Shown here: one piece after another, positions 38,537 through 52,674 of the stretch
Layout: every line of letters starts with the position of its first letter
How positions within the stretch are numbered: position 1 is the first letter of the stretch
Translations under genes and position numbers: made by a program
Assembly: GCF_000336955.1 (NCBI RefSeq)
Contig: NZ_AOLI01000008.1
Coordinates: 1 to 64,000, forward strand
Direction of reading: 5' to 3'
From: Haloferax larsenii JCM 13917
GTDB lineage: Archaea; Halobacteriota; Halobacteria; Halobacteriales; Haloferacaceae
DNA length: 64,000 nt
The notes under the pieces: model-generated
Databases searched by the model: none
Told to the model about the DNA's origin: nothing
The model's input: the letters and a program-made list of their open reading frames with translations, nothing else

Positions 38537-38980
38537 TTACTCGTCGTCCATCGACGACAAGCGAACCACGTACGAGAGGCTCTGTACGTGGTCTTCTTCT
38601 GTCGGTGCGTCCTCGAAGTCCGTCGGAGTCGTAAACGAGAGAATGCGCTCTCGAATCGTATCGTGGGCGTCGTCGCCGACCCACCCGATGTCTCGGTAGT
38701 ACGAGACCATTTCGAGTGAGCCGCGCCCACCGAGTCGTTCGACGAGGTGGACACACCAATCGAGGAGTACCTGCTCCGCATTCGGGGTGTGCGGTATCGA
38801 ATCGAGATACGGACGACCGTCAGATGCGACCTCTGCCGTCGCTGCGAGAAGTCGTTGGTACGCGACGTCGTTCCACTCCTTGTCGACTGGTGCGTCGACC
38901 CAATCGAACTCCGCTGGGTTCCGACCGTGAGCGGCGTGACGGAGTTCGTTGACATTATATCGACGCGGGTCGAGCGGCAT
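38537..38980 (-). CDS. stand-alone FlaD/E (ArlD/E)-domain protein 1
   Basis: 147 residues. After an N-terminal motif MPLDPRRYNVNELRHAAHG, the C-terminal half (PYLDSIPHTPNAEQVLLDWCVHLVERLGG ... YYRDIGWVG ... HVQSLSYVVRLSS) aligns with the C-terminus of ArlCE in this window and with the gene at 44165. That domain is the part of ArlD/E that makes the archaellum switch complex. ATG 38980 has a TATA-like CTTAATTC on the minus strand 23-30 bases upstream. It diverges from the histidine kinase gene, with the shared operator-like element between them. Confidence 0.82.
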   Translation of the reverse strand: MPLDPRRYNVNELRHAAHGRNPAEFDWVDAPVDKEWNDVAYQRLLAATAEVASDGRPYLDSIPHTPNAEQVLLDWCVHLVERLGGRGSLEMVSYYRDIGWVGDDAHDTIRERILSFTTPTDFEDAPTEEDHVQSLSYVVRLSSMDDE

Positions 38981-39246
38981 ACAGGTCGATGTGCGTTTCT
39001 CCGAATTAAGCGTTCGGGCTACCGCGAGTGGCGGTTTCGACGCCTCGTTGACGGTTCTCACGTCCGAACGTGGCCGAACGTGATGCAAAGCCGACGCTGT
39101 TTGTCGAATGAGGTGATATCAATTTTGATACTAGGGGCGAACCGCTTAAGTCACACTCTAGAGACAGCTTCGATATCGTCCCGGTGTGAGGTACACCGGA
39201 TTATCGAAATCGTACCAGACACTGCTATGCATCGCACGACCCACCC
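38981..39246. promoter_or_regulatory. divergent promoter region of FlaD/E-like 1 and the histidine kinase
   Basis: 266 bases. On the minus strand a TATA-like CTTAATTC at about 39003-39010 serves the FlaD/E-like gene. On the plus strand GGATTATCGAAA near 39198-39209 and CTTAAG near 39144 are candidates for the kinase. The 17-base operator-like motif lies at 39114-39130. Confidence 0.5.
39114..39130 (+). promoter_or_regulatory. shared motility operator-like site 1
   Basis: TGATATCAATTTTGATA, whose core TATCAA-TT-TTGATA is a perfect 6-2-6 inverted repeat. Copies lie at 44811 and 48524, and a weak one at 51026. It is 134 bases from the FlaD/E-like start and 117 from the kinase start. Confidence 0.7.
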
Positions 39247-41337
39247 ATGACCAACCTCGAACAGTCGCCATTTTTGTACGCACTGTTCACCTCTGGCGTC
39301 CTCGCTGGGGTGGTCACTATCGTCGTGTTGGGGCGCTTCCGTCTGTACTCTCGTCGCGTTAGAATACCGTTTGCCCTCCTCTCTCTTTCCGGTGCGCTCT
39401 GGGTGACTGCGTACGGATTCCAGTTGCTTTCGACGTCACCGGCGGGTGAACTCTTCTACGCGCGAATCGCCTGGGTCGGCGCAGCGACGCTTCCGACGTT
39501 TTGGCTCGTGTTCTCGCTCGTCTACGCGGGCGAAGACCAACTGCTCACGCGTCGAGTCGTCGCCTTCCTGTCAGTCGAACCGGCACTGGCTATCGCGCTC
39601 GCCTTGACGAGCGACTCACACGGGCTGTTCGTCCCGCCCGAGTTGCTTCGCTCGGGCATGCTGGTCAGACTCACGACCGATGCAGACCCACTGTTGGTCG
39701 GGCACGTCAGCTACGTCGCCGCGGCTTCCATCATCGGCGTGAGCGTCATCGGAAAGACCTTCCTGAGCAGCGACGGCGTCCACCAACGCCAAGCAGCGAT
39801 TCTCGTTGGGACGGGTGTGATTCCGATTTCGGCGTTGGCGTGGAAACTGTTCTGGGACCCATCGCTGCCAATCGACCCGGTTCCGCTGTCACTCGGCGTC
39901 AGCGCTGGCATCATCCTGTGGGCGCTGTATCGGTACCGCCTCTTCGACGTGACGCCCATCGCCCGGGATGCCATCATCTCCGAGATGCGTGATGCCGTCG
40001 TCGTCCTCGACGACCACCACAGGGTCGTCGAATCGAACGGGTCCGCGGCGTCGGTCCTCGAACACCCCGCAGCCGAGTGCATCGGCCAACCCGTCCTCGA
40101 CGTCATCAAGAGCCCCGACGTGGTCCAAAAGGTCCTCGACGGGCGTGACCGACTCGAAGCCGCGGTCGGCGACGGGACAGACAAGCGCTACTTCGAGATT
40201 CGCTCCGGGGCGGTGAGCGAACAGTCGCAAAACCGGGCGAAGCTTCTCGTCTTCCACGACGTGACCGAACGGCGGCAGACCGAAGAGGAGTTCCGCGCGC
40301 TCATCGAGAACTCGCGGGACATCATCACGGTTCTCGACGAGGATGGTGTTCGGCAGTACACGAGCCCGTCTATGGAAGACGTCCTCGGATTCTGTCCGGA
40401 GTCACTCGTCGGTGAGCCTGTGTTCTCTCTGGTCCATCCCGACGACCGAGAGCACGTCCGAGAGGACTTCGAACAAGTAATGGAGGGCGACTCACCCGTC
40501 CGTTCCGAGTTCCGTATTCGCCACAAAAACGGCACGTGGCGACGGTTCGAGACGGTCGGCGTCAACCTCCTCGACGACCCCTCGGTCAACGGAATCGTTC
40601 TCAACTCGCGTGACGTGACGAACCGGTATCGGTACGAACAGCGTCTCCGCGTGCTCAACCGTGTGCTTCGCCACGACCTGCGGAACGACATGAACGTCAT
40701 CCTCGGCCACGCCGACTTGCTGCTCGACGAGCGCATCCCCGCCGAGTCGAAAGACCACGCCCGCACGATAAAGCGAAAGGCGTCGTCACTGGTCGAACTC
40801 GGCGAGCAGACGCGGCACATCGACACGACGCTCGACCGTGGAACCGCTGAACTCGAACAAGTCGAGGTCATCCAACGAATCGAGAAGGAACTCGACGGCA
40901 TCGACGCCAACTATCCGCGGGCAATCGTACATCGGGACCTCCCCGACGAGCAGTGGGTCTACGCCGACGACCTCATCGAGTCGGCCATCAAGAACCTCAT
41001 CGACAACGCCATCGAACACAACGATAGGGTGCTCCCGGAAGTGAGTGTCTCCGTCGAGCCGGCAGCGCCATCGGACGACTTCGTCGAGATTCACATCGAA
41101 GACAACGGCCCAGGGATTCCCGACGCCGAACTCTCGGTGCTCGAATCGGGAATCGAGACGCCGCTTCAGCACATCAGCGGCCTCGGCCTGTGGCTCGTTC
41201 GCTGGATCGTCGACCGGTCTCACGGGCGACTCAGGTTCGTCGAGAACGAACCCAGAGGCACTGTCGCCATCGTCAGCCTCCGGAGCGTCGACGGGAAGGC
41301 GACGGTACGGGAAACGGCGTCGGTCGAGTCTGATTAG
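39247..41337 (+). CDS. 7TM-PAS-PAS histidine kinase
   Basis: 696 residues. Seven N-terminal membrane helices (about 1-230) form a histidine-kinase 7TM sensor. Two PAS domains follow (about 245-345 and 350-460, with the PAC-like WRRFETVGVNLLDD). The phosphoacceptor is His476 in VLRHDLRND, and the HATPase motifs are NLIDNAIEHN, EDNGPGIP and HISGLGLWLV. No receiver is attached and no response regulator gene adjoins, as is common for haloarchaeal kinases. Its place beside FlaD/E-like 1 in the motility island suggests a link to taxis or archaellum control, which is inference. Confidence 0.92.
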   Translation: MTNLEQSPFLYALFTSGVLAGVVTIVVLGRFRLYSRRVRIPFALLSLSGALWVTAYGFQLLSTSPAGELFYARIAWVGAATLPTFWLVFSLVYAGEDQLLTRRVVAFLSVEPALAIALALTSDSHGLFVPPELLRSGMLVRLTTDADPLLVGHVSYVAAASIIGVSVIGKTFLSSDGVHQRQAAILVGTGVIPISALAWKLFWDPSLPIDPVPLSLGVSAGIILWALYRYRLFDVTPIARDAIISEMRDAVVVLDDHHRVVESNGSAASVLEHPAAECIGQPVLDVIKSPDVVQKVLDGRDRLEAAVGDGTDKRYFEIRSGAVSEQSQNRAKLLVFHDVTERRQTEEEFRALIENSRDIITVLDEDGVRQYTSPSMEDVLGFCPESLVGEPVFSLVHPDDREHVREDFEQVMEGDSPVRSEFRIRHKNGTWRRFETVGVNLLDDPSVNGIVLNSRDVTNRYRYEQRLRVLNRVLRHDLRNDMNVILGHADLLLDERIPAESKDHARTIKRKASSLVELGEQTRHIDTTLDRGTAELEQVEVIQRIEKELDGIDANYPRAIVHRDLPDEQWVYADDLIESAIKNLIDNAIEHNDRVLPEVSVSVEPAAPSDDFVEIHIEDNGPGIPDAELSVLESGIETPLQHISGLGLWLVRWIVDRSHGRLRFVENEPRGTVAIVSLRSVDGKATVRETASVESD

Positions 41338-41344
41338 TGAACTA

Positions 41345-41388
41345 CCCCACCCTACCGCTCGCCTAACGGCTCGCGCTTGAGGGTGGGG
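41345..41388. repeat. right-end hairpin of the TnpB element
   Basis: A 9-base stem, CCCCACCCT and AGGGTGGGG, with a 26-base loop that contains the tnpB stop and last codons. Its place is that of the subterminal hairpin and guide-RNA end in IS200/IS605 elements. Confidence 0.75.
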
Positions 41389-42632
41389 CTTCCTGTTTCC
41401 ACGACGCGCTTTGCAGACACCGAGGTATCCACAGGGAGCGCAGTCTCCACAGGCGTTAACGAGAGCGAAGCTCTCGTTCGCACATCAGAATCGCTCTGCG
41501 ATTCTGAGGACGTTGATTCGGAGCGTCCCGCTCCTAACCGCTTTTTGATACCGCGAGAAAAAATATTCCACGCCGCGTTCGCGTCTCTATCCGCCTCGAA
41601 CCCACACGACGGACACGAGTGTTCGCGCACCCACAGCGGCTTGTCTGTCTTGACACCACAGGACGCACACTCCTTGGTCGTCCCGCGTGGATTGACGGCA
41701 ACGAAGTGCGTTCCTTCCCGTTCGCACTTGTATTCGAGCATTCGTAGGAACGTTCCCCACGCCGCGCCTGCGCGGTTCCGAGAGTTGCCCGGGAGTTCGA
41801 CTAACCCCTTCGAGTCAAGGTCTTCGACCGCCACGAGGTCGTACTCGCAGGCGTAGTAGTTCGACAACTTGTGAAGGAAGTCCCGACGCTTTCGCTTGAG
41901 GTCGGCGTGTCGTTCGGCCACAACCTGCCGTTGTTTCTCCCAATTCGCAGAGCCATGTTCCTTTCGCGAGAGGTCGCGTTGAGAGCGTTCCAATCGTTCG
42001 CGCTCGTCGGACAGGTCAAGGGATTCAACGGCGGTTCCGTCGGTGTCGTGGGCGTACTTGAGAATCCCCACGTCGATGCCGACGCACTTCTCGGGATTCT
42101 CCGGTTTCTCCGGCGGGTCGTCGGGAGTCTCGACGCCGAGGATGGCGAACCACTTCCCAGTCGGTTCGCGTTTGACCGTGACGGTCTTGATTTCGGCGTC
42201 GTCGGGAAGGTCGCGGTGGAATGTGAGTGGGATTTCTCCGAGTTTCGAGAGCCACAGTCGGGTCTGGCCACTCGTGTTCTTGAGCTTGAAGCCAGATTGA
42301 CTGTAGGTGAAACTGCGGTACTCGCCCGGTGCTTTCCACTTGAGCGTCCCGACGCGGTAGCCGTTCTCTTTGCGTCCGCGAAGCGTCGAGAGGTTGTCGT
42401 ACAGCCTTTGAACGACTTTCTGAAGAACCTTCGAGTGAACGTTTTTCAGGTCGTTCCACCACTTCTTGAGGCTCGGCAGGAGTCTCTGTTCGCTGTATGC
42501 CGAGGTGTCGTCGTTCCGATTAAGTCGGTGCAGGAAGTGGTTGTAGACTTGTCTACAGGTATCGACAGTCCACGCTAATTGTTCTTCGAGAGCGTCGGAC
42601 GGTCGAAGTCGATACCTGTAGTTGTAGTTCAC
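41352..42632 (-). CDS. tnpB: RNA-guided endonuclease TnpB (IS1341-type)
   Basis: 426 residues from a GTG that overlaps the companion gene stop (GTGA). The wedge/REC region is at 1-180. The RuvC triad is intact: Asp187 (CVGIDVGILKYA), Glu270 (LVAVEDLDSKGL) and Asp350 (ADRDANAAWN). The zinc finger has Cys322-x2-Cys325 and Cys340-x2-Cys343. The last 65 residues are a Ser/Thr-rich tail encoded over two strong DNA hairpins. TnpB cuts DNA next to a short target motif using a guide RNA made from the element's right end. Nothing suggests inactivation. Confidence 0.95.
   Translation of the reverse strand: MNYNYRYRLRPSDALEEQLAWTVDTCRQVYNHFLHRLNRNDDTSAYSEQRLLPSLKKWWNDLKNVHSKVLQKVVQRLYDNLSTLRGRKENGYRVGTLKWKAPGEYRSFTYSQSGFKLKNTSGQTRLWLSKLGEIPLTFHRDLPDDAEIKTVTVKREPTGKWFAILGVETPDDPPEKPENPEKCVGIDVGILKYAHDTDGTAVESLDLSDERERLERSQRDLSRKEHGSANWEKQRQVVAERHADLKRKRRDFLHKLSNYYACEYDLVAVEDLDSKGLVELPGNSRNRAGAAWGTFLRMLEYKCEREGTHFVAVNPRGTTKECASCGVKTDKPLWVREHSCPSCGFEADRDANAAWNIFSRGIKKRLGAGRSESTSSESQSDSDVRTRASLSLTPVETALPVDTSVSAKRVVETGSPTLKREPLGER
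41458..41507 (-). repeat. two adjacent hairpins inside the tnpB 3' end
   Basis: Hairpin A: AACGAGAGC (41458-41466), loop GAA, GCTCTCGTT (41470-41478). Hairpin B: a 10-base stem TCAGAATCGC (41485-41494), loop TCT, GCGATTCTGA (41498-41507). They are 6 bases apart. They lie in the part of tnpB that usually also encodes the guide RNA scaffold. Confidence 0.9.
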
Positions 42633-42992: not shown

Positions 42993-44060
42993 TCAGCGGT
43001 TCCGAGCCAGTTGCCCCGCGATACGGTACGCGCCATCGGCCGCAGCGAGGTCGGGACGCTCCGCGGTGGTCGCGTCGATATCACGACCCAGTTCCTCGCT
43101 CAGGCGCGTCTCGAACTCTTCGACGAGGCCGGGGATACACGTCATCCCGCCCGTGAGGACGATTGGGCGAGAGAGCGCGAGTTGGTACGGCTTCATGTGG
43201 GTGTTGGCGAGTTCGGACAGGAAGTTGTTGGCGAGTTCGTCGACCACCTGGTCGAGGTAGTCGTCGAGCGGCTCCATGACACTCCGTTCGATGGTGAACT
43301 CGTGGGAGCCTCCACCGGGCTGTTGGATGATGTCGGTGAACGCCTCGAACGAGTTGAAGTCGGCGTGTTCTTCTTTGTACTCCCGTGCCGTGGTGCGGTC
43401 GATGTTGACGCGACCTTGCGTCTCTTCTTCGACCGCATTCGCGATTTGGCGGTCGACCTCGTTTCCGGTCGCCGCCCCGGAGACGAAGGGAGACAGCTGT
43501 TCGCCGTGACGGTACGCGCACGCTTCCAGGTTGGTCGAACCCAGGTTGACGGAGATGAAGATTTCGTCGACCGCTTCGAGGTCATCGCCCATCGCGGGGA
43601 TGGCCCCACAGAGCGATTCGGGGAAGCTTCGGACGAGCGCACCACCGATGCTACTCCCCTCGATGACGTCGTTGAGGTTCGAGAGGCCGCGCGCGTTGTC
43701 GATAGTCGGAATCGCGTACACGACCGCGCTGTCTTCTGGGAGGTCCCGACTGCGACAGAGTTCTTCGAAGAACTGCTTCGTGAGTTCCGCCCGGTCGGCG
43801 TCCTCTGGGAGTCCAGACCGGAGCATGAACTGGACGCGGTCTGGGTACTGCCGTGCTGCCTCCTCGCCGTACAGGACGCGCTCGTCGCCGGTGAGCGCAT
43901 CCTCGTACGTCGCGAGACAGGTGAGTGTCCGAACTGTCTCGACTTCCCCGTCTTCGTCGGGGTAGGCGAGCACAGTTCGCGTGCTTCCAAGTTTCACACC
44001 GATTGGGACCGGTCCCGATTCGGTGTCGAATGCATCAGATTGTTCGGATTCCTCTGGCAT
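42993..44060 (-). CDS. actin-superfamily ATPase (MreB/Hsp70 fold)
   Basis: 355 residues. Phosphate-1 motif VPIGVKLGSTRTVLAY (about 18-33), phosphate-2 motif EIFISVNLGSTNLEACAY (about 165-182), and adenosine motif PIVLTGGMTCIPGL (about 305-318). The protein lacks an Hsp70 substrate domain, so a filament-forming or scaffold actin homologue is likelier. Dynamic actin homologues called salactin and volactin are known from haloarchaea, but whether this is one of them cannot be told here. It lies inside the motility island, 104 bases downstream of a FlaD/E-like gene on the same strand. Confidence 0.82.
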   Translation of the reverse strand: MPEESEQSDAFDTESGPVPIGVKLGSTRTVLAYPDEDGEVETVRTLTCLATYEDALTGDERVLYGEEAARQYPDRVQFMLRSGLPEDADRAELTKQFFEELCRSRDLPEDSAVVYAIPTIDNARGLSNLNDVIEGSSIGGALVRSFPESLCGAIPAMGDDLEAVDEIFISVNLGSTNLEACAYRHGEQLSPFVSGAATGNEVDRQIANAVEEETQGRVNIDRTTAREYKEEHADFNSFEAFTDIIQQPGGGSHEFTIERSVMEPLDDYLDQVVDELANNFLSELANTHMKPYQLALSRPIVLTGGMTCIPGLVEEFETRLSEELGRDIDATTAERPDLAAADGAYRIAGQLARNR

Positions 44061-44164: not shown

Positions 44165-44665
44165 TCAGACCATCGACGCGAGCCGTGCGACGTACACCAG
44201 GCTGAGAAGGTGGTCGTCGACGTCGAGTTCAGTGGGGTCTTCGACCTCCGCAGAGAACCCAAGGAGGTAGTCACGGAGCCGTTCTTCGACGTCGTCGGTG
44301 AGCCAGCCGACAGTCTGGTAGTACTGCAACGCGTCCATCGCGCGCTTGAACCCACCTTTGAGAACGAGGAACTCCAGCCAGTCGAAGACGACGCGCTCTG
44401 CGCCGTATTTGTCTGGCAGGGACTTCAGGTAGGGTTTCGTGACGCTGTCGTCTTCCCCACGCGATTGGTGGAGAAGCAGTTGTTCGAGTTGACTCGAACG
44501 GAGTGCCTCCGACGCCGGTCGTCGACCCTTGTCGAAGAGCGGATTGTCGAATCGGAATGGGCTACGGTCGTCTAGGTGGCCGTCGCTCCGATTACGGGAG
44601 CGTTGCGTGTCACGGGCGATGCGTCGGAGTTCGTGGGCGTCGTAGTCGTCCGGGTCCAGATACAT
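44165..44665 (-). CDS. stand-alone FlaD/E (ArlD/E)-domain protein 2
   Basis: 166 residues. It begins MYLDPDDYDAHELRRIARDT, matching the start of the 38537 protein (PLDPRRYNVNELRHAA). The C-terminal domain PYLKSLPDKYGAERVVFDWLEFLVLKGG ... YYQTVGWLTDDVEE ... HLLSLVYVARLAS aligns with the C-terminus of ArlCE. The middle is Arg/Ser-rich and not conserved. It probably interacts with the archaellum switch complex. It is expressed from its own upstream region, which has a hairpin (44696) and the shared operator-like site (44811). Confidence 0.85.
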   Translation of the reverse strand: MYLDPDDYDAHELRRIARDTQRSRNRSDGHLDDRSPFRFDNPLFDKGRRPASEALRSSQLEQLLLHQSRGEDDSVTKPYLKSLPDKYGAERVVFDWLEFLVLKGGFKRAMDALQYYQTVGWLTDDVEERLRDYLLGFSAEVEDPTELDVDDHLLSLVYVARLASMV

Positions 44666-44715: not shown

Positions 44716-44810
44716 TTGGAAGGCGCAGCGCGCCGTCCGTGATGTCACACGCGTTCGTCGTACCGTGTCGTTTACCCGATTCGAAGGCGGCGATATAAAA
44801 TTACCCAATC

Positions 44811-44827
44811 TGATATCAATTATGATA
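44811..44827 (+). promoter_or_regulatory. shared motility operator-like site 2
   Basis: TGATATCAATTATGATA, followed by GTGGGGG as at site 1 (CTAGGGG). The core arms TATCAA/ATGATA match at 5 of 6 pairs. It lies 146 bases upstream of the FlaD/E-like 2 start. Confidence 0.7.
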
Positions 44828-44997: not shown

Positions 44998-45507
44998 TTA
45001 CAGCGTCTGGTCGCCAGTCTTGGCGCTTCGGACTCGAAGGTCTCCCGTCTTCCCGTCGAGTTCGAGTGAGCGCCCGTGTGAGCCACCGACATCTTCCGCG
45101 ACGATGTCGATACCGTGTTTTTCCAATGTTTTTCGTGCCGCTTCGACATTTCGCTCTCCAATCGACTTCCCGCCGTTACTCGACTCGAAGTCGAACATCG
45201 CGCTTCCTCCTGCGAGTTTGGCGACGATACGAGATGTGTCGGCACCTTCGTCTCGCATCTCGGCCAGAAGTGCCTCGATACCCGTGTCGGCGAACTTCGC
45301 CGGGTCGCCATCAGGGTCTGCTTCCGGAAGCATCGCGTGTGCGAGTCCGGAAACGCCCGCCTCCGCGTCATAAAGGGCGACGCCGATACAGGAACCGAGG
45401 CCGCTCGTGGTCAACGTATTACCGTCGGTACCAAAGGCGTAATCCGCGATTCCCACTTTGATTCGGGCTGAGTGGGTGGACGTCGTGTCCGTGGTGTATA
45501 CTTGCAT
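44998..45507 (-). CDS. cheD: chemotaxis receptor glutamine deamidase CheD
   Basis: 169 residues. The catalytic set is intact: Thr34, Cys40 (GSCIGVALYD) and His57 (GLAHAMLP), at the spacing of Thermotoga CheD Thr21/Cys27/His44. It deamidates glutamines on taxis transducers and interacts with CheC. cheC lies 24 bases upstream on the same strand, so the order is cheY-cheC-cheD in one unit. Confidence 0.96.
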   Translation of the reverse strand: MQVYTTDTTSTHSARIKVGIADYAFGTDGNTLTTSGLGSCIGVALYDAEAGVSGLAHAMLPEADPDGDPAKFADTGIEALLAEMRDEGADTSRIVAKLAGGSAMFDFESSNGGKSIGERNVEAARKTLEKHGIDIVAEDVGGSHGRSLELDGKTGDLRVRSAKTGDQTL

Positions 45508-45531: not shown

Positions 45532-46719
45532 TCAGACCGCGGGTGAGAGTTGTTCGAGCGCCTTCCTGAGCTCTTCCTCGTTCGGAAGCGCGTAGATATC
45601 GCAGGTGAACTCGTCGTCGTCCGTTCGGATGGTCGAATCGATGAGGAACGCATACTCCTGTGACTGAGCGAGTTCGGTCGCCAGCGGGTCGACGATGGCC
45701 GAACCGATGTCGTGGACGTGCTTCGGGGGCGAGATGTCTATCGTCGTCCCCAGCGTGTTCGCCCACCCGTCGAGGAAGCCTGACGTCACGATGTTCCCGA
45801 TCTCTTGGATTGCACTCTGTCGCATCGCTTCGTCGCCTTCCATGCCCGGGAGAAGCGAACTTGCGATGTTATCGGCAGAGGGTTCGTCGAACAGGATGGC
45901 GATGTAGCCGCTGGGCGTTCCGAAGAACTCCAAGACGACACCACGGCGGACTGAGTCCGTCAACGACATCGGGACACCCTCGATTGGGACGAAGCTCATC
46001 CGACTCACCTCGACAGTCGTGTCGATGCCAGTCATCGCGGTGATGTCGGCCGACGCTTGGTCTGCACCGTCGGCGATCATATCGGAGAACGCAGCGAACG
46101 ACTGGACTGGCAGCGCACCGTGCTGTCCGCTGGCATCGACGATGGTTTCGATGGAGTCAGGCGACGGGACCATGTAGAGGTCGAACTCGATTGCGTCGTC
46201 GGCGGCTTCGAGTTGGTTTCGGAACACGAGGATGTGTTCGTTGTCGCTTTCGTGTTCGAAGCCGTCGGATTCGAGGTTTTCGAGCGGACCGTCGCTGTCG
46301 TCGTCGACGTACGTGGGCGTCGTGATGTCGATAGTCGTATCGAGGTAGTCGGCCCACCCGTCGATGAACCCGCCGAGCATGATGTTTGCGACCTCTTTCA
46401 GACTGCTGGTCGCGAGTTCGGTCCCGGTCTCGGCACCGTCCATCCCGGGCATCAGCGCGTCGACGAGACGCTCGGCTGATTCGGGGGAGAACGCCAACAC
46501 GGTTCGACCATCCAATCCACCGCTGAAGCCGATGTGAACGCTCACGAGGTCGCGTTCGGCGAACTCCTGTTCGACGTCCGTCTTCGTTCCAAGTTCGACC
46601 TTGGTAACGTTGACGTACGTGTCGATACCGGCGAGCGTCGTCAACGAGCCAGCGGCTTTTTCAGCGCCCGAGTGGGCCAGACGACTAAACGTTCGAAGCG
46701 AACGTACGTCGAGATTCAT
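45532..46719 (-). CDS. cheC: CheC phosphatase, tandem-domain
   Basis: 395 residues with two CheC domains. Each phosphatase helix is intact (KEVANIMLGGFIDGWADYLD and QEIGNIVTSGFLDGWANTLG), giving the Glu and Asn of both sites and the following Pro (TTPTY and SPPKH). Tandem CheC proteins dephosphorylate CheY-P and bind CheD. The start overlaps the cheY stop (ATGA). Archaeal CheC proteins often come in several copies, and only this one is in the window. Confidence 0.95.
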   Translation of the reverse strand: MNLDVRSLRTFSRLAHSGAEKAAGSLTTLAGIDTYVNVTKVELGTKTDVEQEFAERDLVSVHIGFSGGLDGRTVLAFSPESAERLVDALMPGMDGAETGTELATSSLKEVANIMLGGFIDGWADYLDTTIDITTPTYVDDDSDGPLENLESDGFEHESDNEHILVFRNQLEAADDAIEFDLYMVPSPDSIETIVDASGQHGALPVQSFAAFSDMIADGADQASADITAMTGIDTTVEVSRMSFVPIEGVPMSLTDSVRRGVVLEFFGTPSGYIAILFDEPSADNIASSLLPGMEGDEAMRQSAIQEIGNIVTSGFLDGWANTLGTTIDISPPKHVHDIGSAIVDPLATELAQSQEYAFLIDSTIRTDDDEFTCDIYALPNEEELRKALEQLSPAV

Positions 46720-47084
46720 GCCTCAGCCTGAATGACGTCTGCGATAGCCTGGAGCACGTTCGGCTTCTGGAACGGTTTGGTGATGTACCCATCAGCACCC
46801 GCCTCGACGGCTTCGCGCATCTTCTCTTCTTGTCCAACCGACGTACACATGATCACCGACGCGTTCGAGTCCAGAGACTTGATTTCGGAAGTCGCTTCGA
46901 TGCCGTTACGAATCGGCATGACGACGTCCATCGTGACGACGTCGGGTTCGAGTTCACGGTAGAGTTCGACCGCCTCGACGCCGTTTTCGGCCTCGCCGAC
47001 GACTTCGTGTTCGCCCTCAAGAAGCTGTTTCAGGAGGTTCCGCATGAACGCAGAGTCGTCCACGACCAGTACCTTGCTTGCCAT
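46716..47084 (-). CDS. cheY: chemotaxis response regulator CheY
   Basis: 122 residues forming a lone receiver: acidic pair Asp9/Asp10, phosphoacceptor Asp53 (TMDVVMP), switch Thr81 (CTSVG) and Lys103 (TKPFQ). Phosphorylated CheY reaches the archaellum motor through CheF and ArlCDE. ATG 47084 is supported by the TATA box at 47111-47117, 27-33 bases upstream, which makes the long extension unlikely. Confidence 0.96.
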   Translation of the reverse strand: MASKVLVVDDSAFMRNLLKQLLEGEHEVVGEAENGVEAVELYRELEPDVVTMDVVMPIRNGIEATSEIKSLDSNASVIMCTSVGQEEKMREAVEAGADGYITKPFQKPNVLQAIADVIQAEA

Positions 47085-47117: not shown

Positions 47118-47234
47118 CTTCCACCCCATTATCATCCCTGATACGAAACGCGGGGATTGAGTCGGCGACATCCCTCTCGTCGGGCGATTTACAGGTGTCA
47201 ACTGTCACCGCCGAGTGAGACGGGAGCGAGGTTG

Positions 47235-48366: not shown

Positions 48367-48523
48367 CTCACTTTTTTGACTCCGTATTCGGGTGGCCGTT
48401 GCGGACGTCTCAGTAGTCCGCCCGTGTGAGAGTCCGTCGCACGTACCTGTCGTGATAGTGGTACGCACACAATCATACGTGCGTGCGTGCGCGAAGAATT
48501 AGGATATTAGGCTCATACAAAAT

Positions 48524-48540
48524 TCTGATATCAGTTCTGA
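48524..48540 (+). promoter_or_regulatory. flgA1: shared motility operator-like site 3, upstream of flgA1
   Basis: TGATATCAGTTCTGATA, with a perfect core TATCAG-TT-CTGATA. Against site 1 the arm pair A:T has changed to G:C on both sides. It lies 92 bases before the flgA1 ATG. Confidence 0.75.
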
Positions 48541-48593
48541 TATTGTGGTCCGTACCGTTATGTACCACCTGCCCAAGTGATTGGACGAAGGTC

Positions 48594-48611
48594 ATCCCTC
48601 TCTTGCGAGAG
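48594..48611 (+). promoter_or_regulatory. flgA1: hairpin in the flgA1 leader
   Basis: CCCTCTC (48594-48600), loop TTGC, GAGAGGG (48605-48611), 22-39 bases before the ATG. It may affect mRNA stability or translation of the abundant archaellin. Confidence 0.6.
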
Positions 48612-48632
48612 GGGGACCGCCCACGACAACCC

Positions 48633-49268
48633 ATGTTCGAAAATATCACTGAAGACCGGGGTCAGGTCGGTATCGGGACCCTCATCGTCTTCATCGCGAT
48701 GGTTTTGGTCGCCGCAATCGCGGCGGGTGTCCTCGTGAACACGGCTGGCTTCTTGCAAGCCACCGCCGAGGACGCCGGACAGCAATCTGTGAACAAGGTC
48801 ACCAACCGCGTTGACGTCGTCAGCGTTCACGGTGTCGTCAACGCGACTTCGTCGCCGTCGACGGTCGACAACGTGAACCTGACCGTCCGCCTGGCGGCCG
48901 GTTCCGGTTCTGTTTCACTGAACAATACGAGTATCAAGTACCTCAGCGCCGACACGGCGACGACGCTGACTAACAACAACTCTGTCACGGCAGACAACAT
49001 CGACTGGGCGAATTCCTCGCCGAACGAGTTCGCCGTCCGCAAGATTGCCGACGACGACACCTCGTTCCCGATTCTCAACGGTCAGGCTGACCGCTTCGAG
49101 GTCGTCATCAACACGTCCGTCGTCGAGGGGACCTCGAAGAACGGTCTCCAGACTGGCGAATCCGTCACGCTCGAAATCACGTCCCGCAACGGCGGAACGT
49201 CGCAAGTCATCCTGACCATGCCGCAGCAGCTGGCTGGTAAGTCTGACGGCGACCCAGTTGCACTCTAA
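48633..49268 (+). CDS. flgA1: archaellin FlgA1 (archaellum filament subunit)
   Basis: 211 residues. The class III signal [10 protein letters not shown] is processed after Gly10, and [20 protein letters not shown] is the start of the polymerising helix. The globular part has at least six Asn-X-Ser/Thr sites (NAT, NLT, NNT, NNS, NSS, NTS), as expected for a glycosylated external filament. The start 48633 is clear because the signal begins there, and the longer frame contains the leader. flgA2 follows 9 bases downstream. Confidence 0.96.
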
Positions 49269-49272
49269 GGAG
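49267..49272 (+). promoter_or_regulatory. flgA2: strong ribosome binding site of flgA2
   Basis: AAGGAG overlaps the last bases of the flgA1 stop and is 5 bases from the flgA2 ATG. A strong Shine-Dalgarno site is notable in a lineage where most genes are leaderless, and it fits an internal operon gene. Confidence 0.7.
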
Positions 49273-49277
49273 AACTA

Positions 49278-49898
49278 ATGTTCGAAAATATTACTAACGA
49301 CAAGCGCGGTCAGGTCGGTATCGGTACGCTCATCGTCTTCATCGCGATGGTCCTCGTTGCGGCTATCGCAGCCGGTGTGCTCGTCAACACTGCGGGCTTC
49401 CTGCAGGCAACTGCTGAAGACGCCGGGCAAGAGTCCGTCGACAAGGTCACGAACCGCGTCGAAGTGCTCAACAGCCACGGTGTGGTCGGTAACAACAGTA
49501 CGATCAAGTACATCAACATGTCCGTTCGCCTGGCTGCCGGTTCCAGCAGCGTCGACATGAACGAGACCTCGATCAAGTACCTCAGTGGTTCCGAGGTCCA
49601 GCAGTTGACCAACAACTCTGCATCTGGAACCGCGGACGGTACGCAGTTCGCTCTCAACGAGATCACCGACGACGACAACTCGTTCGGTGTCCTCAACAGC
49701 ATGAGTGACCGCTACGAAGTCGTCATCAACGCTGGCGCTATCGAAGCAGAGACGCCAGCTGACGACAACGACGGTCTCGAAACGGGCGAGACGGTCCGCC
49801 TCGAAATTACCTCGCGCACTGGCGGCACCACCACGGTCATCCTGACCATGCCGCAGCAGCTGGCTGGCAAGGCTTCCGACAAGCCGGTCAAGCTCTAA
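49278..49898 (+). CDS. flgA2: archaellin FlgA2
   Basis: 206 residues. The signal [11 protein letters not shown] is cleaved before [20 protein letters not shown]. The protein is closely related to FlgA1 at the first 60 residues and the last 20, with a divergent surface-exposed middle ([19 protein letters not shown]). Several Asn-X-Ser/Thr sites are present (NNS, NMS, NET). It is the second gene of the archaellin operon. In Haloferax FlgA2 is the minor archaellin, but that role here is inferred. Confidence 0.96.
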
Positions 49899-51025: not shown

Positions 51026-51039
51026 TATCTCGACTGATA
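51026..51039 (+). promoter_or_regulatory. weak match to the shared motility operator-like site
   Basis: TATCTCGACTGATA keeps both half-sites (TATC and CTGATA) of the TATCAG-TT-CTGATA core with the same total length but a changed centre. It lies in the arlCE / KaiC-like promoter region. Confidence 0.4.
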
Positions 51040-51106
51040 ACGGGACGGGAACTTTCTTGTACCAACTCACGTAGGTTGGACTAATGTTACCTGCTCCCCC
51101 GAGTGT

Positions 51107-51171
51107 GTCGGACCGTCCCGGCCTGTCCGACGACCGGAAGGGTGACAGCTCCCTGCTGGTGCGGGTCACCC
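51107..51171 (+). promoter_or_regulatory. arlCE: two hairpins in the arlCE leader
   Basis: GTCGGAC (51107-51113) / GTCCGAC (51125-51131), then GGGTGAC (51140-51146) / GTCACCC (51165-51171). Both have 7-base stems. They would form a structured leader ending about 40 bases before the ATG at 51214. Confidence 0.5.
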
Positions 51172-51213
51172 AGCCCCCAACGCGGAGGTGCGGCAACCAT
51201 CACAATCGAGTGG

Positions 51214-52674
51214 ATGGACGACGAAGACGAGGCAGACGCCGGGGACCAAACGGACACCGAGGAGGAAACTATGTCATCAGATGATGGACTTGGATTTGAG
51301 GACGATATAGACGATCTCTCCGACGAGTTTGGTGACTTCGGCGACGACCTCGACGACGGATTCGAAGACGACGAATTCGGCGGATTCGACGACGGAAACA
51401 ACGAGGAAATCGCAGAGCTCGAGGATCGAATCGGCGAACTCGAGAACGAAGTTAGCGCCATCTCGTCCGGGATGAACACGGTTCGCGAAGAGAACAAACA
51501 AATCGGCGAGACCGTCGAGGAGCTAGACGATACCATTCGGAAGCTTCTCGACATCTATGAGATGGTCACTCGCGGAATCAACCCGTTTGTCGACGACGCC
51601 CGAGAGATGGGCGGACTCGACGCGGGCGGAGCCTTCGGGCTGTTCGAAGGCGAAGAAGAAGACGACGAGCACCTCGACCCCGAGGTTGCGAGTGCCGACG
51701 CCGAGACGTTCTTCGACGACGACTTCGGCGAACTCGATGCGGAAGCCGAAGCAGAAGAAGCCGAACGGGCTGCCGAAGACGAACTGGCAGAATCCGAGCG
51801 GATGAGCCCGGCAGAGGCGCTCGAAGACGATGCGATGGGCGGCGGACTGCCCGAGGAAGACGAAGAGGAAGAAGACGATGCCGGCGGCGGCGGTGCGGGC
51901 GGCGCAAGCTTCGACGACCTCAAAGAGCAGTACGAAGAGGAAGGCGGTTGGGACGAAGAAGAGGAAGAAGCCCTTGAGGAAGAAGCGTTCGAGGAAGAGG
52001 CGGAAGAAGACGAACTCGACGTTGCGGACGAACCGGAACTCGACGAAGTCGAAGACGACTCCCCCGAAGCGGATGTCGTCGAAGAAGTCGACGAGGAACC
52101 CGAAGAAGAAGCAGAACTCGTCGACGAGGAACTCGTTCCCGAACCGGAAGACGAGGTGGAAGAGACGGACGCAGAGTCCGACGACGACGCCGACGACATC
52201 GGCGACGTCAAGAAGACGCTCGACGAGCTGGAAGCGGAGTACGCCTCCGCTGCGATGGCGAAAGAGGAACTCAATTCCGAGCCGGAACCAGAACCGGAGC
52301 CGGAGTCTACGGCTGCCGACGTGGCAGCGTCCGATGCCTACTTGACCCGTCTGCCAGCGAACTACGTCTCGGAAGTACTCGTCCTCGAATGGGTCGAGAC
52401 GCTCGTCGAATCAGGTGGCGCACTCGGTGCGTCGCGCGCGCTCCGCCAGTACAGGGAGCAGGACTGGATTTCGCGCGCCGTCGAGAACGAACTCAACACC
52501 CACGTCGCCCAACTCGCGGCGTCCATCGACGACGTCGAAGAGACCGACCTTCACATCGAGGACCACCAGACGAGTCTCGCCTACATCAGCCGGCTTGCCG
52601 ACGACGGCCCAGACAGACAGCTGTTCGAAGAGTTGGTTGCCTACGGAGGGGGTCTGGATGGGATTCGGTGTTAG
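51214..52674 (+). CDS. arlCE: archaellum switch-complex protein ArlCE (FlaC-FlaE fusion)
   Basis: 486 residues from ATG 51214. An N-terminal acidic/coiled-coil part (about 60-130: EEIAELEDRIGELENEVSAISSGMNTVREENKQIGETVEELDDTIRKLLDIYEM) has the FlaC features. A very acidic linker of about 200 residues follows, and then the C-terminal FlaD/E domain AYLTRLPANYVSEVLVLEWVETLVESGG...HQTSLAYISRLAD. It transmits CheY/CheF signals to the ArlHIJ motor. A second start at 51271 is possible. Its end overlaps the arlF start by 17 bases. Confidence 0.92.
   Translation: MDDEDEADAGDQTDTEEETMSSDDGLGFEDDIDDLSDEFGDFGDDLDDGFEDDEFGGFDDGNNEEIAELEDRIGELENEVSAISSGMNTVREENKQIGETVEELDDTIRKLLDIYEMVTRGINPFVDDAREMGGLDAGGAFGLFEGEEEDDEHLDPEVASADAETFFDDDFGELDAEAEAEEAERAAEDELAESERMSPAEALEDDAMGGGLPEEDEEEEDDAGGGGAGGASFDDLKEQYEEEGGWDEEEEEALEEEAFEEEAEEDELDVADEPELDEVEDDSPEADVVEEVDEEPEEEAELVDEELVPEPEDEVEETDAESDDDADDIGDVKKTLDELEAEYASAAMAKEELNSEPEPEPEPESTAADVAASDAYLTRLPANYVSEVLVLEWVETLVESGGALGASRALRQYREQDWISRAVENELNTHVAQLAASIDDVEETDLHIEDHQTSLAYISRLADDGPDRQLFEELVAYGGGLDGIRC

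Follow-up and report, generated by a model that had tools for sequence, protein, structure and literature searches.

Salactin is known from Halobacterium salinarum, where this actin forms dynamically unstable filaments that grow from the cell poles; its deletion left cell shape and motility normal, and DNA distribution and viability were disturbed at low phosphate (PMC10746226). For the Halobacterium gene, poor synteny and a neighbourhood of DNA replication and repair genes were reported (PMC10746226). In Haloferax volcanii, ArlD-GFP is polar and marks the archaellum motors (PMC11588486), and an 'ArlD/HVO_1202' transcription unit was raised together with the archaellum and chemotaxis units in a csmR mutant, the nature of HVO_1202 not being stated in that 2026 paper (PMC13286277). 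A literature search covering salactin, volactin, HVO_1202 and ArlD found no paper linking ArlD to an actin, and the conserved ArlD-salactin partnership presented here does not appear to have been described so far.

The window (the whole stretch of 64,000 nucleotides of Haloferax larsenii JCM 13917 that was analysed) encodes a 355-aa protein matching the Pfam salactin family PF25229 with 602.7 bits (E=2e-181, cut-off 27.1) and the NCBIfam salactin equivalog NF053533 with 601 bits against a cut-off of 400. The actin is salactin, the recognised family known from Halobacterium. Matches above cut-off to both models ruled out an unknown actin family; volactin was discarded at only 22.9 bits for PF25216 (cut-off 35), MamK at 38.3 bits for NF040964 (cut-off 400) and MreB because its model scored far under the cut-off. 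The PHOSPHATE-1 (GVKLGSTRTV), PHOSPHATE-2 (VNLGSTNLEA) and ADENOSINE (TGGMTCIPG) motifs show almost no variation across 20 salactin orthologues, and no Hsp70 substrate-binding domain was found in the 355-aa protein. The AlphaFold model (pLDDT 89.4, pTM 0.86, disordered N-terminus) has its best structural matches in MreB and MamK. The ORF, the motifs and the model therefore bear out what had been proposed from the letters, a 355-residue actin-fold ATPase lacking a chaperone domain. In a tree with Methanocella-like and Archaeoglobi-like outgroups the protein falls inside the haloarchaeal salactin clade. Its identity is the one point on which the sequence-only reading needs correction, the actin being a member of a known family.

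The salactin gene is present in all 15 Haloferax genomes. The window protein shares 99% identity with its H. elongans counterpart. Both keep canonical PHOSPHATE motifs, unlike the che-island salactin of most Haloferax species, which is fast-evolving with altered PHOSPHATE-1/2 (L163-L174; GAKLGSARTA in L071) and may be losing ATPase or polymer function. H. mucosum carries a second, canonical salactin outside the che island (L033, 10001-11583), and 56 nt downstream of it lies a FlaD/E gene that belongs to the second-paralogue type of Haloferax.

Table 1. Features of the window around the salactin gene
Feature	Coordinates	Strand	Description and evidence
Salactin	42993..44060	(-)	355 aa, actin-fold ATPase; PF25229, NF053533
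ArlD, FlaD/E-domain protein	44165..44665	(-)	166 aa; PF04659 94.3 bits; N-terminal motif LDPDDYDAHELR
Second small FlaD/E protein, Haloferax ArlD paralogue	38537..38980	(-)	PF04659 75.6 bits; start MPLDPRRYNVNELR
CheD	44998..45507	(-)	PF03975 113 bits
CheC-type protein	45532..46719	(-)	PF04509 and PF13690
CheY	46716..47084	(-)	ORF; start MASKVLVVDD from sequence; motility element 47130-47143 upstream
Two archaellin genes	48483..49898	(+)	PF01917 at 48660-49199 and 49308-49838
ArlCE (FlaC + FlaD/E domains)	51103..52674	(+)	PF05377 81.8 bits, PF04659 79.5 bits
Motility palindrome TATCATAATTGATA	44814..44827	(-)	Upstream of ArlD-salactin; exact match
TATA-like box TTTATAT	44793..44799	(-)	Downstream of the palindrome; coordinate from sequence
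Motility element at second FlaD/E gene	39117-39130		
Motility element at archaellins	48529-48542		
Motility element at ArlCE	51026-51039		

ArlD and the downstream salactin are separated by 104 nt, a gap in which no motility palindrome was found. The exact pattern TATCNNNNNTGATA occurs at five window sites (39117, 44814, 47130, 48529 and 51026) versus 0.01 expected by chance, and these sites precede the second FlaD/E gene, ArlD-salactin, CheY, the archaellins and ArlCE. The TTTAT core is kept in an alignment of 14 upstream sequences. An adjoining FlaD/E gene with a motility element upstream had also been proposed, and the PF04659 match and the exact palindrome at 44814 agree with it. The palindrome upstream of arlD is kept in Haloferax, Halogeometricum and Halobellus; the arlD-salactin pair of Haloarcula and Halorubrum mostly goes without it, and motility co-regulation is therefore a property of the Haloferax group. 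The H. volcanii genome, used as a control, matches PF25229, and we infer that HVO_1202 is a salactin homologue, since the order CheY, CheC, CheD, ArlD, HVO_1202 equals that of the window, with the gene order of 14 other Haloferax genomes as a further ground.

Directly behind salactin (41352-42632) lies a gene for a TnpB-type RNA-guided nuclease (IS200/IS605), probably a recent insertion, because the corresponding interval of H. elongans (L032) holds about 1.6 kb less DNA than that of the window. Behind the salactin gene of Haloarcula, two motility palindromes about 63 bp apart (L053, 11400-11476; L126, 11346-11422) precede a gene for a TPR-like protein of about 600 aa, a possible member of the motility regulon.

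The window ArlD has PF04659 without PF05377, that is, a FlaD/E domain and no FlaC, and scores 206.7 bits with the ArlD profile. A tree built from 106 FlaD/E domains places it beside the ArlD of the Halobacterium archaellum operon, together with almost every other salactin partner and separately from ArlCE; the ArlD side has a support of 92, and the ArlCE side includes both Natrialbaceae-like proteins. ArlD, which is small and mostly helical, combines the N-terminal signature [ND]PxxYDxxELR with a variable linker and the FlaD/E domain. The signature marks ArlD, and none of the 23 proteins assigned to ArlCE has it. Searching the PDB for folds like that of the ArlD model yielded no usable match (best E 1.7), and the profile search returned no solved relative. 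The second small FlaD/E protein of the window is fast-evolving and forms its own clade with the other Haloferax copies (support 100); its gene adjoins that of a 7TM-PAS histidine kinase (39247-41337). Natrialbaceae-like genomes (L184-L189) have no true ArlD, their second FlaD/E protein grouping with ArlCE, and in family f11 (L175-L178) ArlD adjoins a very large PAS-domain kinase-like gene.

A neighbourhood survey that covered the salactin loci of 122 genomes in the order, with genes counted on the same strand at no more than 1.1 kb, revealed a FlaD/E gene upstream of salactin in 99 genomes, belonging to 28 of the 32 genera. The neighbourhood on whose conservation the sequence-only reading depended is thus a conserved one. 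The exceptions are Halobacterium (8/8), in which salactin and arlD are unlinked, g52, g6 and some genomes of Natronomonas, Halapricum, g46 and g63; about 5 kb separates the two genes in Halosimplex and g70. The pair has more than ten different flanking gene contexts, including the che island (Haloferax, Halogeometricum and part of Halobellus), CheW and ParA genes (Haloarcula, Halomicrobium and relatives) and unrelated genes (Halorubrum, Halohasta, Haloplanus, Natronomonas, Haloglomus and g72), which rules out a link made by the che island only. At 25 linked loci, Halorubrum, f8 and g80 among them, the ArlD stop overlaps a possible salactin start by 4 nt (ATGA). Inside the archaellum operon of two g63 genomes (L160, 4355-15925, and L146), tandem salactin copies alternate with duplicated arlCE and arlH genes in the order cheC-cheD-arlCE-arlF-arlG-salactin-arlCE-arlH-salactin-arlCE-arlH; these names come from sequence and domain calls, with arlF, arlG and arlH assigned by sequence resemblance. 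In Haloarculaceae (L047, 7396-9251, and relatives) a CheW-domain gene and a ParA gene overlap each other and run divergently from arlD-salactin, an arrangement reminiscent of the ParA-guided placement of chemosensory arrays.

The pairing could also be a frozen ancestral gene order, inherited without any functional link. Haloarchaeal salactins form one clade that roughly tracks descent, so that the 99 cases include many without independence; the sampled genomes are related, and the 99 linked loci among 122 do not amount to 99 events. The change of flanks, in more than ten ways, round a constant pair is the stronger argument, and it speaks against a frozen order, as do the recurrence of the start-stop overlap in Halorubrum, f8 and g80 and the joint absence of both genes in many lineages. 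We regard this explanation as quite improbable.

Co-occurrence was analysed in 391 genomes of the order. Salactin scored above cut-off in 171 of them and a FlaD/E protein in 311; every one of the 171 salactin genomes has a FlaD/E protein (Fisher p 5e-24, uncorrected for kinship), and none of the 80 genomes lacking a FlaD/E protein has salactin. With the ArlD profile, 161 of the 171 score below 1e-29, and in all ten weak-scoring genomes a divergent FlaD/E gene adjoins salactin. Archaellated lineages that lack ArlD contain no salactin; those with ArlCE and no ArlD-type score are Natrialbaceae-like f5, g4, g5, g7, g10, G203, g40 and g58. ArlD without salactin was found in family f11, four Halobacterium genomes, g29, G052 and two Halobellus genomes, and the dependence would therefore be one-way. 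The two Halobellus genomes keep the archaellum, the che genes and ArlD and have lost salactin, which is missing between arlD and the next che-island gene. This asymmetry, with haloarchaeal salactin always accompanied by a FlaD/E protein and ArlD often present without salactin, fits an ArlD-dependent filament.

Eight genomes (six g72, G302 and G368) keep the pair without an archaellum. No archaellin and no FlaC or CheA dimer domain scored above cut-off in them, and their sole FlaD/E gene is the salactin neighbour, with a degraded ArlD signature in five of the six g72 salactin partners. The pair therefore serves some purpose where archaella are lacking. ArlD is kept without salactin in five archaellum-less f11 genomes, which lack FlaC; ArlD therefore has a further role, and the proposal that archaellum-less genomes retain ArlD only alongside salactin is ruled out. 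G315 and G277 look like exceptions, probably because of their assemblies (a contig edge in L209; 180 contigs in a genome that does have archaellins).

Outside haloarchaea, full-length salactins also occur in Methanocella-like (f19) and Archaeoglobi-like (f15, f16 and f33) genomes, with no FlaD/E gene next to salactin at these loci, which rules out ArlD as the salactin partner in all archaea. Eleven of the 13 Archaeoglobi-like loci encode salactin together with a coiled-coil protein and a MinD/ParA ATPase, all in one direction; one of the other two has the coiled-coil protein only and one ends at a contig end. Type IV pilus genes (ATPase, platform or pilin) flank the set at five Archaeoglobi-like loci. 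This set, located at L225 (5131-12326) and L219-L231 and with a coiled-coil protein ending in ESKSPRIL, resembles an undescribed positioning or partition set.

These genomic contexts bear on what salactin may move. One use, along the lines of the sequence-only reading, would be to position or partition, at the poles, the motors of archaella and the chemosensory arrays. Such a role would agree with the ArlD partnership, the che-island and archaellum-operon contexts, the common regulon, the CheW-ParA neighbours in Haloarculaceae and the pilus genes beside salactin in five Archaeoglobi loci. However, the pair is kept without archaella or CheA, two Halobellus genomes with an archaellum have lost salactin, and the effect of deletion on motility that this role would lead one to expect was not seen in the published Halobacterium mutant (PMC10746226); the literature yielded no counterpart from species with the linked pair. 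What stands of the proposal is that the genes are conserved with motility genes, although the pair is not confined to archaellated genomes and some motile lineages lost salactin; we hold this role to be possible but doubtful, and the positioning of archaella is one candidate use of salactin.

Alternatively, salactin may be a chromosome-partitioning filament, as proposed for Halobacterium, with ArlD only a polar landmark or borrowed adaptor and with neither archaella nor chemotaxis as cargo. The Halobacterium deletion mutant, in which motility is normal and both DNA distribution and viability are affected at low phosphate (PMC10746226), points in this direction, together with the retention of the pair without archaellin, FlaC or CheA and the MinD/ParA ATPases that adjoin salactin in Archaeoglobi and Haloarculaceae. 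We consider this alternative rather unlikely: it leaves unexplained why ArlD is the partner, why the Haloferax salactin has a motility element, why g63 carries salactin in the archaellum operon and why the ParA gene of Haloarculaceae lies next to a CheW-domain gene.

On balance, we lean slightly towards ArlD and salactin being a two-gene unit in which ArlD would act as polar anchor, nucleator or adaptor of the filament. This proposal is based on the pairing across contexts, the co-occurrence and the joint absence in ArlCE-only lineages; on the archaellum-less genomes that keep the pair and the g63 salactins in the archaellum operon; and on the single Haloferax motility element that serves both genes and the rise of ArlD/HVO_1202 in the csmR mutant. 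The polar location of ArlD-GFP in Haloferax and of salactin filaments in Halobacterium argues for the anchor role. Against the unit stand the unlinked genes of Halobacterium, ArlD without salactin, the degraded g72 signature and the other partners outside haloarchaea. ArlD sits at the cell pole, where it also belongs to the archaellum switch, and in the proposed mechanism salactin filaments would contact it there; physical contact, anchoring and cargo are all things we infer. The anchored filaments would grow out from the poles and collapse by ATP-driven dynamic instability, organising or partitioning whatever is tied to the pole, which could be archaellum and chemosensory assemblies in motile lineages and possibly also chromosomes at low copy number. 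The anchor role, to which we give the same narrow preference, is compatible with polar motility machines, DNA or both as cargo, and confidence in it overlaps with that in each cargo. With respect to the 'undescribed positioning module' suggested earlier, the conserved pair, the shared Haloferax motility element and the g63 operon favour a module, but its actin is an already known one.

A broader and more tentative proposal, which we hold below an even chance, is that ArlD is a bifunctional polar hub, at once archaellum switch and anchor or control of actin filaments, for an actin-based placement or partition of polar machines whose older form would be the Archaeoglobi operon. If true, a protein of the archaellum switch would have a further task that does not depend on archaella. 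The conserved ArlD partner suggests what polar salactin filaments are anchored to; the sole in-depth study of salactin had no informative gene neighbours because it was made in Halobacterium, where the link is broken. ArlD is a concrete candidate anchor in Haloferax, the main archaeal model, for which ArlD-GFP, delta-arlD strains and swim plates exist.

Among known systems, the nearest is the H. salinarum salactin VNG0153C, which shares with the window protein the equivalog-level family, the ATPase motifs, the length and the acidic disordered N-terminus; VNG0153C is unlinked to arlD, whereas the window gene lies in an arlD operon with a motility element within a che/archaellum island. Volactin (Haloferax volcanii HVO_2015, PF25216), whose role is in disk shape, is also a dynamic actin of haloarchaea but belongs to a separate family. 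MamK, which positions an organelle, and MreB are the nearest structures to the salactin model, yet with 14-23% identity, and no magnetosome or rod-shape genes accompany the window salactin. MinD4 and MinD2 of Haloferax likewise concern polar ArlD and CheW foci and the placement of archaella and arrays, but they are MinD ATPases and not actins, and a genetic link to salactin is not known. Partition systems of the ParM type likewise combine an unstable filament and a small partner gene in one operon; unlike them, the salactin unit is chromosomal, has no known centromere and has as partner ArlD, a component of the archaellum switch.
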